DNA of 64,000 bases from Aurantiacibacter zhengii (lineage in GTDB: Bacteria; Pseudomonadota; Alphaproteobacteria; Sphingomonadales; Sphingomonadaceae): NCBI RefSeq assembly GCF_003584125.1, contig NZ_QXFL01000001.1, positions 496,001 to 560,000 on the forward strand. Direction: 5' to 3'. The position numbers and the translations under genes were made by a program. This document shows, piece by piece, positions 39,661-64,000 of the stretch (its first letter is position 1; each line of letters opens with the position of its first letter). The notes under the pieces were generated by a model. The model did not search any database. It was not told the origin of the DNA and was given only the letters and a program-made list of their open reading frames with translations.

Positions 39661-41010
39661 GTGAGCACGTCGTCGCCCCTCACCCGCCGCGCAATCTTTT
39701 CGCAGGCCTGGCCGATCATGCTCGGGCAGGCCTCGGTGCCGCTGGTCGGCATTGTCGATACCGCCGTGATCGGCCGGACCGGGGATGCGACAGCGCTGGC
39801 GGGCGTGGCGCTGGGCGCGACGATCATCACGCTGGTGTTCTGGACTTTCGGCTTCCTGCGCATGGGCATGACCGGGCTGACCGCCCAGGCGCAGGGATCG
39901 GGCGACCGCGCAGAAGTGGAGGCTTTGCTGCTGCGCGCTCTCGCCATCGGTCTCGGTCTCGGCTTCATTCTGCTGGCGGCGAGCTGGCCGATCCGCGAGG
40001 CAGCACTGGCGGTGATGAGCGGAACGCCGCCGGTCGATGCCGAGGCTTCCGGCTATATGCAGGGCCGCTTTATCGGCGCGCCTGCCGCCCTCGCCGTCTA
40101 TGCCATCAATGGCTGGCTGCTGGGCCTTGGCCGCACGCGAGAGGCGCTGGCGCTGCAGATCGCGATGAACCTGGCCAATATCGGGCTCGACGTGTGGTTT
40201 GTCTGGGGCATGGGGTTAAGCGCGTTCGGCGTCGGGTTGGGGACCGCCTGCGCGGAGCTTATCGCGCTTGCCCTGGGTCTCCTGATCGTCGCGCGTGTGG
40301 CGGGTGCCGGCGTGCTCGCCATCGTTTCCCGCACACCGCGCAGACTGCTGACGGACCGGGCCCGCCTGACGAAGCTGTTCGCTGTCAACCGCGACATCAT
40401 GATCCGCACTGTCGCCCTGCTCATCCTTTTCACATGGTTTGCCAATTCGGGCGCACGCCTGGGGGCGGCGACGCTGGCGGCGAACCACGTTCTGCTACAG
40501 TTCGTCAGCTTCGCCGCCTTCATCCTCGATGCCTTCGCCTTCACGGCGGAAGAGCGCGTGGGTAGCGCCTATGGTCGGGGTGATCGAGATCGGTTCCTGC
40601 GTGCGATACGCTTGACCGGCGAATTCTCGCTCCTGAGCGGCGCCGCGCTGGCAGTCTGCTTCCTGCTTTTGGGAGGCCCGCTCATCGATTTTCTCACGAC
40701 GGATGCGCAGGTACGCGACACCGCGAGAGCATTCCTGCCCTATGCCGCGCTGATACCGCTCATCGGGATGCCCAGCTATATGATGGACGGCGTCTTCATC
40801 GGCACGACCCGCGGACGGGCGTTGCGCAATGCCGGTGTCGCCGCCACGGCAATCTATATCGGCATCGACTTGCTGCTGCGTCCCTATGACAACACCGGCG
40901 TTTGGATTGCGATGACGGCCAGCTACCTCTTGCGCGCAGGTGGGCTGGCATTGTATTTCCCCGGCCTGCTCAAGGATATCCGCCAGTCAGAGGCCAAGAC
41001 ACCCGTATGA
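39661..41010 (+). CDS. MATE-family efflux transporter (DinF type)
   Basis: The 449-residue protein has about twelve membrane segments in two related halves, with PIMLGQASVPLVGIVDTAVIG at the start (given from Pro), LGLGRTREALALQIAMNLAN in the middle and NSGARLGAATLAANHVLL in the second half, which matches the DinF-like branch of MATE exporters. These exchange Na+ or H+ for organic cations. The start is GTG 39661, four bases after the CFA synthase stop codon. Substrate unknown. Confidence 0.9.
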   Translation: MSTSSPLTRRAIFSQAWPIMLGQASVPLVGIVDTAVIGRTGDATALAGVALGATIITLVFWTFGFLRMGMTGLTAQAQGSGDRAEVEALLLRALAIGLGLGFILLAASWPIREAALAVMSGTPPVDAEASGYMQGRFIGAPAALAVYAINGWLLGLGRTREALALQIAMNLANIGLDVWFVWGMGLSAFGVGLGTACAELIALALGLLIVARVAGAGVLAIVSRTPRRLLTDRARLTKLFAVNRDIMIRTVALLILFTWFANSGARLGAATLAANHVLLQFVSFAAFILDAFAFTAEERVGSAYGRGDRDRFLRAIRLTGEFSLLSGAALAVCFLLLGGPLIDFLTTDAQVRDTARAFLPYAALIPLIGMPSYMMDGVFIGTTRGRALRNAGVAATAIYIGIDLLLRPYDNTGVWIAMTASYLLRAGGLALYFPGLLKDIRQSEAKTPV

Positions 41011-41564
41011 TCCGCAATCCGCTGCCCCGCCTCTTCACCCGCGCCCTTACCGCCCTGATGCTGGTGCTGGCGACAATGAGCCTGGCCACACCCGCGCAGG
41101 CCGATGTGCAGGTCTCGTTTCATTCCTTCAATGGATCGGTTCTCTGGGGTCGCTACCCGCACACCTTCGTCGTGCTGGAAGGCGAGCTTGCGGACGGGAC
41201 GAGAGTGAATGCGAACTATGGCTTCTCGGCCCGCTACACATCTCAGGCAATTGCCTCGGGCCCGGCGGAGCACATGATCATGACGGAGACCGAGCGCACC
41301 ATCGCGGCGACCAATCGGCACTTCACGGTCACGGTAACGGACCAGCAGTACCGCCGCCTGCTGGCCACCGTACTAGCCTGGCGCGACTACCCCGGCGAGT
41401 ATTACGACCTCGACGAGAACAACTGCATCCACTTTGTCGCTGCGCTGGCCCGCGTGGTGGGTCTGGATGCCGACGTACCCGACGAATACCTCCGCCGACC
41501 GAAGGCCTGGCTGAACTATATCGGCAAAAAGAACCCGCAGCTGCGGGCGCGCGAAATTCCCTGA
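41007..41564 (+). CDS. Secreted protein, possible permuted papain-fold (NlpC-like) hydrolase
   Basis: The 185-residue product has a signal peptide (LTALMLVLATMSLATPAQA) and is coupled to the MATE gene by ATGA. It has a His in GRYPHTFVVLEGEL and a later Cys in DENNCIHFVAALARVVG. A His followed by a Cys in an alpha/beta protein of this size is the order found in circularly permuted NlpC/P60-like amidases, but I cannot be sure of homology. Probably periplasmic. Confidence 0.7.
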   Translation: MIRNPLPRLFTRALTALMLVLATMSLATPAQADVQVSFHSFNGSVLWGRYPHTFVVLEGELADGTRVNANYGFSARYTSQAIASGPAEHMIMTETERTIAATNRHFTVTVTDQQYRRLLATVLAWRDYPGEYYDLDENNCIHFVAALARVVGLDADVPDEYLRRPKAWLNYIGKKNPQLRAREIP

Positions 41565-41639: not shown

Positions 41640-42854
41640 ATGTCCGAAATCAAACGCGTCGTTCTCGCCTATTCCGGCGGCCTTGATACCAGCGTCATCG
41701 CCAAGTGGCTGGAGACGGAGCGCGGCCTGGAAGTCGTGACGTTCACCGCCGATCTGGGCCAGGGCGAGGAAATCGAACCCGCCCGCGCCAAGGCACGCGC
41801 CATGGGCATTCCGGACAAACACATCTTCATCGAGGACGTGCGCGAGGAATTCGTCAGTGACTTCGTCTTTCCCATGATGCGCGCCAATGCGCGCTACGAA
41901 GGCGACTACCTGCTTGGCACTTCCATCGCCCGACCCCTGATTTCCAAGCGTCTGGTGGAGATCGCTCACGAGACCGGCGCCGATGCGATTGCACACGGCG
42001 CTACCGGCAAGGGCAATGACCAGGTGCGCTTCGAACTGTCTGCCTACGCGCTTGACCCGAATATCAAGGTCATCGCCCCCTGGCGCGAGTGGGATCTGAC
42101 CAGCCGAACGGCATTGATCGCCTGGGCTGAGGCGCACCAGATCGCCGTGCCGAAGGACAAGCGCGGCGAGAGCCCCTTTTCTACCGACGCCAACCTTCTG
42201 CACACCTCTTCCGAAGGCAAGGTGCTGGAGGATCCGTGGGAGGAGACGCCCGACTACGTTTACTCTCGCACCGACCATCCGGAAGAGGCGCCCAACACCC
42301 CGGAATACATCACGATCGAATTCGAGAAGGGTGACGGCGTTGCGCTGAACGGCGATGCGATGAGCCCTGCCACGCTGCTGGCCGCGCTCAACGACCTTGG
42401 CCGCAAGCACGGCATCGGCCGGCTAGACCTCGTCGAGAACCGCTTCGTGGGCATGAAATCACGCGGGATGTACGAAACACCCGGCGGCGAAATCTATGCC
42501 CGCGCCCATCGCGGTATAGAGCAGATCACTCTCGATCGCGGAGCCGCCCACCTCAAGGACGAGTTGATGCCGAAGTATGCAGAACTCATCTACAACGGGT
42601 TCTGGTTCAGCCCGGAGCGCGAGATGCTGCAGGCCGCCATCGACCTCAGCCAGGAAAAGGTGGCGGGCACCGTCCGGTTGAAGCTCTACAAGGGCAACGC
42701 GATGGTCGTGGGCCGCAAGTCGCCCAATTCGCTGTATTCGGAAGCGCACGTCACCTTCGAGGACGATGCCGGCGCCTATGACCAGGCCGATGCCGCAGGC
42801 TTTATAAAGTTGAACGCCCTGCGGCTGCGACTGCTTGCTCAGCGGGATCGTTGA
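41640..42854 (+). CDS. argG: Argininosuccinate synthase
   Basis: The 404-residue protein is ArgG: the P-loop [47 protein letters not shown] and [15 protein letters not shown]. It joins citrulline and aspartate with ATP in the arginine pathway, in the cytosol. ATG 41640 gives the family-typical start [14 protein letters not shown]. It is monocistronic; a long unusual non-coding region follows it. Confidence 0.98.
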
Positions 42855-42924: not shown

Positions 42925-42977
42925 TTGACTTATCCACCCTTGTCCACTGGCATTTCGCTCGAAAGTGGATAAGTCGA
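42925..42977. promoter_or_regulatory. Inverted pair of DnaA-like boxes
   Basis: TTGACTTATCCAC (42925-42937) and its near-perfect inverted copy (42965-42977, 12 of 13 bases) face each other across 27 bases. Each contains TTATCCAC, eight of nine bases of the DnaA box consensus TTATCCACA; TGTCCACTG at 42941 is a weaker third. The element lies between argG and the structured region that precedes rlpA. Confidence 0.5.
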
Positions 42978-43099
42978 CCATCGCGCCCTTGCCCGACTCG
43001 GCCCCTGCGCGCATTCTCAATTTATCGAGAGCGAAGACGGATTAGCTCCCTGGATCGCCTGCCGAATCAGGAAGACGAAAACCGAAGCGAACTCGACGC
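42978..43099. other. Non-coding spacer before the structured region
   Basis: No gene is seen here. It contains a small hairpin CCTG-CCGAAT-CAGG near 43059-43072 and may hold the promoter of the RNA proposed at 43100-43497, but no clear -35/-10 pair stands out. Confidence 0.4.
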
Positions 43100-43497
43100 G
43101 ATGACAGTGTCATTGCGGAGTAGGAACGGGACAGCGGAGCCTTCGGGCAACACCATCCCGGACTGTTGAGACCGCGAAGACCTATCATCGGATGGCCGGA
43201 GTATTGGACCCCGGTGTCAATGGTTCACGGCGCAGCTTGCTGCACAGCGGACCGCTCGAGACACCAGGGTAACAGCCCCGGCTCGGACAGGCAGCCAGAC
43301 CTGTCGGGAGTGGCCTTGTGCCCCCTGACTGTCCAGGCACCGGTTCGGCACCGGCGCGAGCGCCGGGCGACATATCCTGATGGCCAAACCCTTCGGGGGG
43401 AGGAACAGATGGAGACACGCCAGGCGATAAGCGTTTCTTCGGAAACCCACCGCCGGTGAGAGTGGGGTCGGTAGCAATACCGACCCCATTTTCGTTT
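43100..43497 (+). ncRNA. Candidate structured non-coding RNA of unknown family
   Basis: This stretch lacks a convincing reading frame but is packed with short perfect hairpins with stable tetraloops: GCC-TTCG-GGC (43140), GCAG-CTTG-CTGC (43233), GACAGG with CCTGTC (43285), CCGGCG-CGAG-CGCCGG (43351), CCC-TTCG-GGG (43390) and GTTTC-TTCG-GAAAC (43433). A ten-position outer stem pairs 43209-43218 with 43259-43268 apart from one mismatch. It ends in a perfect rho-independent terminator. I found no hallmark of tmRNA, RNase P, SRP or 6S RNA. The 5' end is a guess. It could also be a long leader for rlpA, 147 bases downstream. Confidence 0.55.
43463..43497 (+). terminator. Strong rho-independent terminator
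   Basis: A perfect 11-bp stem (TGGGGTCGGTA with TACCGACCCCA) closed by a GCAA tetraloop and followed by TTTTCGTTT. It lies 600 bases after argG and 147 bases before rlpA, with no protein gene in between, so a transcript other than an mRNA of a visible gene must end here. Confidence 0.93.
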
Positions 43498-43643
43498 ATC
43501 CGGCCAAAATTGTCGAGCCGTTCCCTAAGCGCGATGCAGTTCGTCGCATTTTCGCCCCATTTCACGGTAAGCCGCCCCGCCGAAGCGGCTACCTCCCGCC
43601 CAGGGACTCGGTGTTTTAACCGCATTGGGCTATCTCAGCCGCC
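43498..43643. other. Upstream region of rlpA
   Basis: A 146-base gap without a gene. It contains TTTTAACC at 43614-43621, a CtrA-like half-site, and otherwise only the presumed rlpA promoter. Confidence 0.4.
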
Positions 43644-44225
43644 ATGGACGGGACAAATCCCAATCGCGCTATTACGCGCTGGCTGGCGCCTGTTGCTGCC
43701 TTGATACTGCTAGGCGGCGGCGGCATCGGCCTTGCGCAGGACGCGCCTGTCGGCACGCAGATGTCTGCCGACCTTGCTCCTGCCGCTAGGCAGGATCAGC
43801 CTGCGTTCCAGCCCAGCGAGCAGGCGCAGTTCGAAACCGCCTTTGCGCGCTTCGATACGCCGGCGGAGCCTGCCCTGCCCGATCACGCGGTGGACATTAC
43901 CACTATCGAGCCTGCCGAGCCGAGCGCCACTCCTATCGGGCCCGGCGTTGCGAGCTACTACGGCCGTCGCTTTCACGGTCGCCCTACGGCGAGCGGGGAA
44001 GCGTTCGACATGAACGACCTTACCGCCGCCCACAAGACGCTGCCCTTCGGCAGCCGCGTGCGGGTGACGAACCCGCGCAACGGTGCCTCCGTCGTCGTAC
44101 GGGTCAATGATCGCGGACCGTTCACGCGGGGGCGGGACATCGACCTGTCGCGCGCTGCGGCGGAGCAGATCGGCATCGTGCGTTCGGGCCATGGCCGGGT
44201 CGAGCTCGAGCTGCTCGACAACTAG
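43644..44225 (+). CDS. rlpA: RlpA-like septal lytic transglycosylase
   Basis: The 193-residue protein has an N-terminal membrane segment or signal peptide ([19 protein letters not shown]) and a C-terminal double-psi beta-barrel: [34 protein letters not shown] and [18 protein letters not shown], with the catalytic Asp in NDRGPF. RlpA cleaves peptide-free glycan strands at the septum. The SPOR domain that normally targets RlpA to the septum is absent, and there is no lipobox. It follows the candidate RNA and converges with the oxygenase gene three bases away. Confidence 0.9.
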
Positions 44226-63691: not shown

Positions 63692-63800
63692 AATTCCTCC
63701 ATCAAAAGCGAAACTGTCGCTTGTGACGGAGGGAGCGCGGAAATGCGCTCTCCCGCTGGCTTTCGGTACACCCCGCCCGATAGCGTAAGCGACCGTCTCA
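63692..63800 (-). promoter_or_regulatory. Expression platform between riboswitch and btuB
   Basis: This leader contains a hairpin pairing AGCGC with GCGCT and GGG with CCC (about 63732-63755 on the minus strand), just before the GGAGG of btuB. It could decide access to the ribosome site, so control is probably translational. This is inference from position. Confidence 0.5.
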
Positions 63801-63965
63801 GGCAGGTCTCCTGGCTCCCGGATCGATGCTTCCCGCTCGCCTTCCCGCCCCCAAGATAACTTAGCGACAGTGGCAACAGAGCGGGTCGCTCCCCGGTCAC
63901 AGTTGCGGGGGCAGCGCGGGTGTTTCACCCGCTTCCCTCTTAGGTTCGCTTTCACGAACAACCCG
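63801..63965 (-). promoter_or_regulatory. Cobalamin (adenosylcobalamin) riboswitch
   Basis: The minus strand carries the B12 box GAGCCAGGAGACCTGCC (63817-63801) and, upstream, the conserved GCTGCCCCCGCAACTGTGA (about 63915-63895) and a GTTCG-to-CGAAC hairpin at the 5' end. These are the core elements of the cobalamin riboswitch. It precedes btuB, the expected target; high cobalamin should lower expression of the uptake operon. Confidence 0.95.
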
Positions 63966-64000
63966 TGACGTCGGCGCCTCATTATGCGCGAGTGTTCGCA

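Follow-up and report, generated by a model that had tools for sequence, protein, structure and literature searches.

We identify, in the spacer between argG and rlpA of Aurantiacibacter zhengii, a gene of about 470 nt whose product, as judged by comparative sequence analysis, is a conserved structured noncoding RNA. Ahead of it in the aligned relatives is a conserved layout of three DnaA-type boxes and a GANTC site, and both the RNA and this predicted promoter architecture are strongly supported by the comparison of loci. We think it fairly probable that this is a long structured RNA gene timed by DnaA, GcrA and CcrM, with a product that acts in trans.

The RNA gene and its fold

The window, meaning the whole stretch of 64,000 nt that was analysed, corresponds to positions 496001-560000 of contig C1 in a genome of 3.8 Mb. 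The argG-rlpA spacer is 789 bases long, and both genes lie on the + strand. The features of the locus are as follows:

41640..42854, + strand: argG, with argininosuccinate synthase domains; the same neighbour in relatives, flanking the RNA and outside it
42930..42937, + strand: DnaA-type box 1, TTATCCAC, a candidate by motif
42940..42948, + strand: DnaA-type box 2, TTGTCCACT, exactly 10 bp after box 1
42965..42972, - strand: DnaA-type box 3, inverted, GTGGATAA, 35 bp past the start of box 1
42989..42994, + strand: putative -35 element TTGCCC, a conserved TTG block with a 17-bp spacer to the -10 element
42995..42999, + strand: GANTC (GACTC), a CcrM-type methylation site in the -35/-10 spacer
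43012..43017, + strand: putative -10 element CATTCT, aligned as CA(T/G/C)(T/C)(C/T)T in relatives
43024..43493, + strand: structured noncoding RNA gene of ~470 nt, from its MFE z score and covariation
43644..44225, + strand: rlpA-like gene with a DPBB_1 domain, flanking the RNA and outside it

Upstream of argG, a protein gene at 40929-41564 (+) has a sub-threshold match to a PPPDE peptidase.

The preliminary description had proposed a structured RNA at 43100-43497, and the place of that interval between argG and rlpA, as well as its sequence, are as it described. The locus was right and the left edge was not: the RNA begins ~76 nt earlier, at ~43024, and the conserved promoter block at 42930-43017, with its triad and GANTC, lay outside the interval and was missed. 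We placed the 5′ end from the promoter and the 3′ end from the terminator. Across 82 loci the RNA measures 377-603 nt, with heuristic 5′ ends that begin some RNAs late (e.g. L012, L019 and L123), and the genome of the window holds only one match to the RNA gene.

Both the original interval 43100-43497 (z = -4.29) and the longer 43024-43496 (z = -3.58) were more stable in folding than every one of 100 shuffled sequences. The RNA divides into five domains followed by a terminator:

43025..43096, + strand: domain I, an MFE domain, with H1-H3 above all 60 simulations
43099..43190, + strand: domain II, with H4-H7 above all 60
43194..43283, + strand: domain III, with H9 and H10 above all 60
43284..43347, + strand: domain IV, more weakly supported, with bounds from the single-sequence fold
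43350..43457, + strand: domain V, with a near-invariant CGAG hairpin, the A′:B′ helix and a covarying hairpin at 43433-43446
43458..43493, + strand: intrinsic terminator with a GCAA loop and a T tract, 14 pairs with a canonical fraction of 1.00 (rounded, n = 82)

Three TTCG-loop hairpins claimed at the outset are present in the MFE fold at 43142, 43392 and 43438, and TTCG occurs five times in 43024-43496. The claimed CGAG hairpin (CCGGCG-CGAG-CGCCGG, 43351-43366) stands in the sequence and in the alignment consensus, and the single-sequence MFE fold pairs this stretch otherwise. For the outer long-range stem, consensus folds differ in the partner given to the 5′ AUCG, either the base of domain I or a segment on the 3′ side. 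The terminator is as first reported: 43463-43473 and 43478-43488 form a perfect 11-bp stem around a GCAA loop, and TTTTCGTTT follows; a simple consensus scan for terminators found none, this one included. Four terminator pairs have double changes in at least two of the 82 sequences. In L118, L120, L121, L122, L124, L127, L129, L130 and L131 the GCAA tip is replaced by a UUCG loop on a kept stem, a swap that spans genus g47 plus L121 (g41) and L131 (g92).

We aligned 82 distinct RNAs by sequence with MAFFT (484 columns kept) and evaluated covariation against a null that is a simplified stand-in for R-scape and handles phylogenetic dependence approximately. Among 19 helix entries, alternatives included, 11 (H1-H7, H9, H10, H15 and the terminator) exceeded all 60 tree-aware simulations in canonical fraction as well as in covariation, H15 being in domain V. 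The helices H8b, H11, H12 and H16 exceeded all 60 in covariation only, H13 in canonical fraction only, and H8a and H17 in neither; the H14 entry was left out of these results and the A′:B′ helix was scored separately. For H8b, the base helix of domain III, 0 of 60 simulations reached the covariation and 1 of 60 the canonical fraction, and for H11 and H12 of domain IV the corresponding numbers were 0 of 60 for covariation and 4 and 2 of 60 for canonical fraction. The covariation in relatives called for by the preliminary description is thus strong.

At the level of single column pairs, five exceeded all 20 simulations of the tree-following null, four of them at least 93% canonical and the second-ranked only 63% canonical. 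The sixth-ranked pair is canonical and outside any modelled helix, and the seventh is 5% canonical, so some of the signal is not base pairing. On each of five measures the 3′ module (30 sequences) scored above all 500 shuffles and above every slid control, with the structure derived from the same alignment on which it was evaluated, which favours it. The A′:B′ helix is 92.9% canonical, with 24, 16, 7, 4 and 3 double changes at five pairs (54 cells). In the stretch 43346-43457, B′ can take the place of B as the partner of segment A of the CGAG hairpin; this long-range A:B′ pairing is 94.6% canonical in the 82 sequences, nearly all of it invariant, and is the alternative that the single-sequence fold prefers. 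On this model the 3′ module may switch between the A:B hairpin and A:B′ pairing.

The RNA body diverges fast, with a mean column identity of 49% in alignment A2. Its conservation extends furthest in the terminator and the CGAG hairpin. Conserved unpaired stretches are short, such as GCCAAG and GGT(G/A)AGAG, which could be contacts, and the hairpin loops include UUCG, CGAG and GCAA.

A scan of Rfam 15 at gathering score found no match at the locus and, elsewhere in the window, only a cobalamin riboswitch (124 bits, 63784-63981, -). A lax scan gave only chance-like matches at the locus, the best at E 0.096 and below cut-off, and no family matched in 19 relative loci. The earlier statement that known large RNAs do not fit holds for RNase P, 6S and tmRNA: neither RF00010 nor RF00013 matches here, the one RNase P RNA of the genome lies at C12:588436-588837 (293.8 bits), and for tmRNA there is no Rfam match and ARAGORN finds none in the window. 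A 6S-like match occurs at C1:339163-339333 (L032), with 44.8 bits against a gathering cut-off of 46.4. The locus was also said to hold no believable protein frame, and we agree: the four ORFs of at least 30 aa are frameshifted or interrupted in most of 12 same-genus relatives, a 48-aa minus-strand ORF being intact in 4 of the 12. The reading as a new structured RNA has therefore withstood the Rfam, covariation and protein-frame checks.

Other identities were considered and rejected. CsrB-type sponge RNAs carry many GGA triplets and have their own promoter and terminator; the RNA here likewise has a promoter-like block and a terminator, but its genome has no CsrA match and GGA is found 19.1 times per RNA against 16.1 expected (mean z about 1), so a CsrB/RsmZ sponge is rejected. 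Anti-Shine-Dalgarno loops are not apparent either, with CCTCC at 0.2 per RNA against 0.4 expected and CTCC likewise not enriched. A plasmid or phage origin is likewise rejected, since neither collection gave a DNA match at E 1e-5. Among the titles and abstract openings listed from open-licence literature no such RNA is described, though a description elsewhere is possible, and the main-text portions of PMC11109978 and PMC8632094 held nothing relevant on argG, rlpA or sphingomonads. The RNA family is apparently undescribed and new in sphingomonads.

Promoter architecture

In 82 loci the triad consists of TTWTCCAC or a close variant, TCCAC, and an inverted GTGGAWAA or close variant, and its spacing of 10 and 25 bp is exact in every one. 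Position 3 of box 1 is A in 72 loci, T in 6 and G in 4, and its other seven positions are identical in at least 79 of the 82. Box 2 follows at 10 bp in all 82, its core beginning 13 bp after the start of box 1; the core is (G/C/A)TCCAC in 81 loci and TCTAC in the remaining one, and the base before TCCAC is G in 67, C in 11 and A in 4. The core of box 3 is found at +35 in all 82 loci and alternates between TTATCCAC and TTTTCCAC, with base counts that include five loci read at a box 2-box 3 distance of 17 through an artefact of the regular expression. At their 9th base boxes 1 and 3 mostly have C or T, where the E. coli DnaA-box consensus has A.

The triad lies 17-59 bp upstream of the -35 element. 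A GANTC follows it in 74 of the 82 loci (11.2 expected from shuffling) and is missing in 8. Its offset from box 3 is 21-23 in 62 loci, only 28-30 in 9 and only 11 in 3. Nine loci without a GANTC at 21-23 have one ~7 bp further on, and in the three loci with the short offset, all from one genus, the promoter is 11 bp, or one helical turn, closer to the triad. That the GANTC is kept at moved positions, together with the 11-bp shift, suggests that the site and its helical face matter. A simple sigma-70 consensus scan returned a single site, on the - strand, and not this promoter. From the motifs we infer that the block at 42930-43017 is the promoter of the RNA.

At the motif level, the locus resembles a DnaA-regulated promoter through its DnaA-type boxes in all 82 loci. 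For a GcrA/CcrM promoter, the GANTC of the 74 loci is joined by the two genes, which we looked for in the genome of the window: it encodes GcrA as well as a methylase of the CcrM type, with N6_N4_Mtase and RAMA domains. CcrM has this domain pair too. Excerpts of PMC4287350 report that Caulobacter cell-cycle promoters with a GANTC between -10 and -35 are activated at 40-60 min, that a GANTC occurs within 50 bp upstream in only 31% of GcrA-enriched cell-cycle start sites, and that Caulobacter DnaA motifs include CTCCACA, ATCCACA and GTCCACA. The G/C/A variation before TCCAC in box 2 is the same variation as in these motifs as excerpted there (PMC4287350).

Distribution, loss and divergence

When 43090-43500 served as a DNA query, 59 of the 199 family genomes gave a match. 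In the 30 loci taken rlpA adjoins the RNA in all and argG in 29, L020 being cut by a contig end. From the 3′ module of 30 sequences we built a covariance model, R1, whose E-values are rough. R1 matched 179 of 396 genomes of the order at E 0.001, and the scores fall into two groups: 115 genomes reach at least 72 bits, and the best score of each of the other 64 is at most 44.5 bits. None of the four weak matches that were fetched lies by argG or rlpA. We treat the 64 weak genomes as noise, and among the other 60 there may be diverged true copies.

The DNA matches and strong model matches gave 96 loci, of which 12 repeat a genome, leaving 84 distinct loci; the 82-locus counts leave out these repeats as well as L020 (contig end) and L096 (box 1 too diverged for the regular expression). 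Both argG and rlpA were found at 81 of the 84 distinct loci, the exceptions being L020 without argG and L089 and L124 without a detected rlpA. An inverted rlpA occurs in L131, with argG and an intact RNA in their usual order, and in L326 the gap from argG to the RNA is roughly 700 bp. Among 17 genomes searched with ArgG we found G384 (L145), from the same genus, where a gap of 192 bp separates argG from rlpA and the genome lacks RNA and triad alike, by sequence a loss of both.

Within the order, the triad pattern (at most 2 mismatches) occurs in 79 of 296 genomes, and a reversed control pattern in 1. For 78 of the 79 triads an R1 match lies 329-653 bp away on the same contig; the 79th, in G111, is downstream of argG and before a diverged copy of the RNA (L147). 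Because the triad is close to a palindrome, six of the 79 genomes list a second match there on the opposite strand. Within matching genomes, then, the triad pattern marks one place.

We also searched a wider contig collection with the exact triad pattern. Among the matches listed (at least 80 loci), R1 matches 67, with 64 above 60 bits, and these R1-matching loci include Erythrobacter, Qipengyuania, Croceicoccus, Tsuneonella, Porphyrobacter and Altererythrobacter. Qipengyuania flava DSM 16421 (L239) is one of the strains with the RNA. R1 matches none of the seven triad loci from unrelated bacteria among the matches listed (L200, L204, L237, L259, L261, L262 and L273, from Weissella, Butyrivibrio, Kocuria, Clostridia, Streptomyces and others). 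In L237, a Kocuria MAG, a dnaB helicase gene comes just after the triad, and in L273 the ORFs around it have no obvious link. Six other triad loci among the matches listed have no R1 match; in five the triad is near the edge of the fetched stretch, and in L208 it is not.

A looser promoter pattern reached further genera, with matches in 29 of 296 genomes of the order, at least one of which (G334) was judged to be chance, and one control match (G121). In the class, the looser pattern matched 2 of 385 genomes, both judged to be chance, and the control matched in 4, so that this search found nothing convincing outside the order. Diverged forms of the RNA are seen in G111, G001 and G087. Ten of the 12 looser-pattern loci that were fetched have argG upstream; in the diverged loci L147, L151 and L155 no rlpA was detected in the 1.5 kb that follow argG. 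A terminator was found by pattern in 7 of the 12, giving RNAs of 335-709 nt, and not in the other 5. Those seven RNAs start with TCATCGGAAGG or close variants, end in AGTGGG(G/C/A)GC...GCAA...CCC(G/A)TTT, and have stable single-sequence folds (z -3.0 to -7.0, 30 shuffles each). We take them to be homologous on the agreement of promoter, 5′ start, terminator and position. L331 and L332 have a triad-like promoter and the TCATCGGAAGG start away from argG, which suggests relocation of the RNA gene in some genera.

Possible regulation and function

In the mechanism that we propose, the locus would be a gene in its own right, with a sigma-70 promoter and an intrinsic terminator of its own, that yields a long multi-domain noncoding RNA. 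DnaA would bind the rigid box triad upstream of the -35 element, and GcrA would act at the CcrM-methylated GANTC in the core promoter, so that RNA output would follow replication initiation and fork passage. We infer this binding and the cell-cycle timing by DnaA and the GcrA/CcrM pair from the motifs, the encoded regulators and the Caulobacter precedent. Against this explanation stand the eight loci without GANTC, the absence of the RNA in G384, the fast divergence of the RNA body, the high-ranking column pairs that are not base pairs, the departure of boxes 1 and 3 from the E. coli consensus at the 9th base, the sigma-70 scan that passed over the promoter, and the 31% share given in PMC4287350. 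The finished RNA might act in trans as a folded regulator or scaffold, and would probably bind protein, since in its loops we see stable tetraloops and no CU-rich pairing seeds. We propose a trans mode of action only hesitantly, and the specific role of a protein-binding regulator or scaffold acting in trans is, taken alone, a tentative suggestion. Bolder, and rather unlikely, is the idea of a dedicated RNA output of the replication initiator, in which the triad and the GANTC methylation clock would, once in each round of replication, fire a large folded RNA that would feed back, as a ribonucleoprotein, on replication, division or translation.

The long and highly structured RNAs OLE, GOLLD and ROOL, whose function is not obvious, occur in other hosts and settings; the RNA here is likewise long and structured and is without any Rfam match. 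To our knowledge few bacterial RNAs of this size keep their fold across many genera, and several large RNAs that do have turned out to be machines or major regulators. A closer setting is offered by CcnA (CCNA_R0094) of Caulobacter crescentus, likewise alphaproteobacterial, a cell-cycle-regulated ncRNA whose gene has DnaA boxes; according to excerpts of PMC8959179, however, it is 182 nt, lies inside the origin region and is presumably CtrA-activated. Compared by locus and length only, our RNA is ~470 nt, sits between argG and rlpA and follows a DnaA triad and GANTC. EcpR1 of Sinorhizobium meliloti is a conserved alphaproteobacterial sRNA acting on dnaA and gcrA, but its dominant form is 101 nt with two stem-loops, encoded downstream of divK-pleD and part of a stringent-response regulon (excerpts of PMC4414408). 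The podJ P2 promoter of Caulobacter has a GANTC at -24 and a DnaA motif at -82 and peaks at 40 min (excerpts of PMC4287350); it serves a protein gene, with one DnaA motif named in the excerpt, whereas here three fixed boxes precede an RNA gene. By this analogy the RNA may work like the cell-cycle ncRNAs CcnA or EcpR1, and by length, locus and promoter it is neither.

Several other explanations of the same data can be weighed. The RNA could be real and a housekeeping scaffold with no cell-cycle role, the triad serving another factor or DnaA tuning a growth-rate promoter. This explanation accommodates structural selection on the RNA and a DnaA binding that is predicted from motifs, and the sigma-70-like -35 and -10 elements alone could drive transcription; we consider it unlikely since the box changes follow DnaA-type degeneracy (A/T at position 3, and G/C/A before TCCAC as in excerpts of PMC4287350) and the GANTC is kept at shifted positions. 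A base-pairing sRNA acting in trans on cell-cycle mRNAs, of the CcnA or EcpR1 type, would have alphaproteobacterial precedents with the same regulators, as described in the excerpts of PMC8959179 and PMC4414408. The multi-domain architecture and ~470 nt, against the 182 and 101 nt given there, make it quite unlikely, as do the lack of enrichment of CTCC and CCTCC and a conservation that runs longest in the terminator and the CGAG hairpin and covers only short unpaired stretches.

Alternatively, the DNA itself might be the functional element, a DnaA-control site of the datA/DARS kind that reloads or titrates DnaA, with the RNA as by-product or reader. Such a site would fit with three rigidly spaced boxes that each matching genome has at a single place, probably not at the origin. 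This is distinctly improbable given that the triad is near-fixed relative to the promoter and precedes the RNA in all 79 matching genomes, that triad and RNA are absent together in G384, and that the RNA covaries strongly. Position between argG and rlpA in 81 of 84 distinct loci raises the question of a cis-acting leader or attenuator of rlpA or a 3′ UTR of argG; the promoter-like block and terminator of the RNA, its intactness beside the inverted rlpA of L131, its ~700 bp distance from argG in L326, and the undetected rlpA within 1.5 kb past argG in the diverged L147, L151 and L155 make this very improbable. That the DnaA boxes mark the chromosome origin is barely credible, since, of 20 bins of 20 kb surrounding the site, 19 share the same sign of GC skew. 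In a relative, G103, the sampled skew is weak and mixed and points neither way. Excerpts of PMC4741004 place oriC of Sphingopyxis granuli by hemE, with the same prediction for most Sphingomonadaceae in DoriC, which also argues against an origin here.

A DnaA/GcrA/CcrM-timed RNA gene would be of interest because its host group is widespread and its readable promoter names DnaA, GcrA and CcrM as candidate regulators. Direct tests thereby become possible of how replication timing might pass to an RNA. The promoter pattern, at one place per matching genome, marks the gene even where the RNA body has diverged. The RNA may be a missing RNA part of sphingomonad cell-cycle control.
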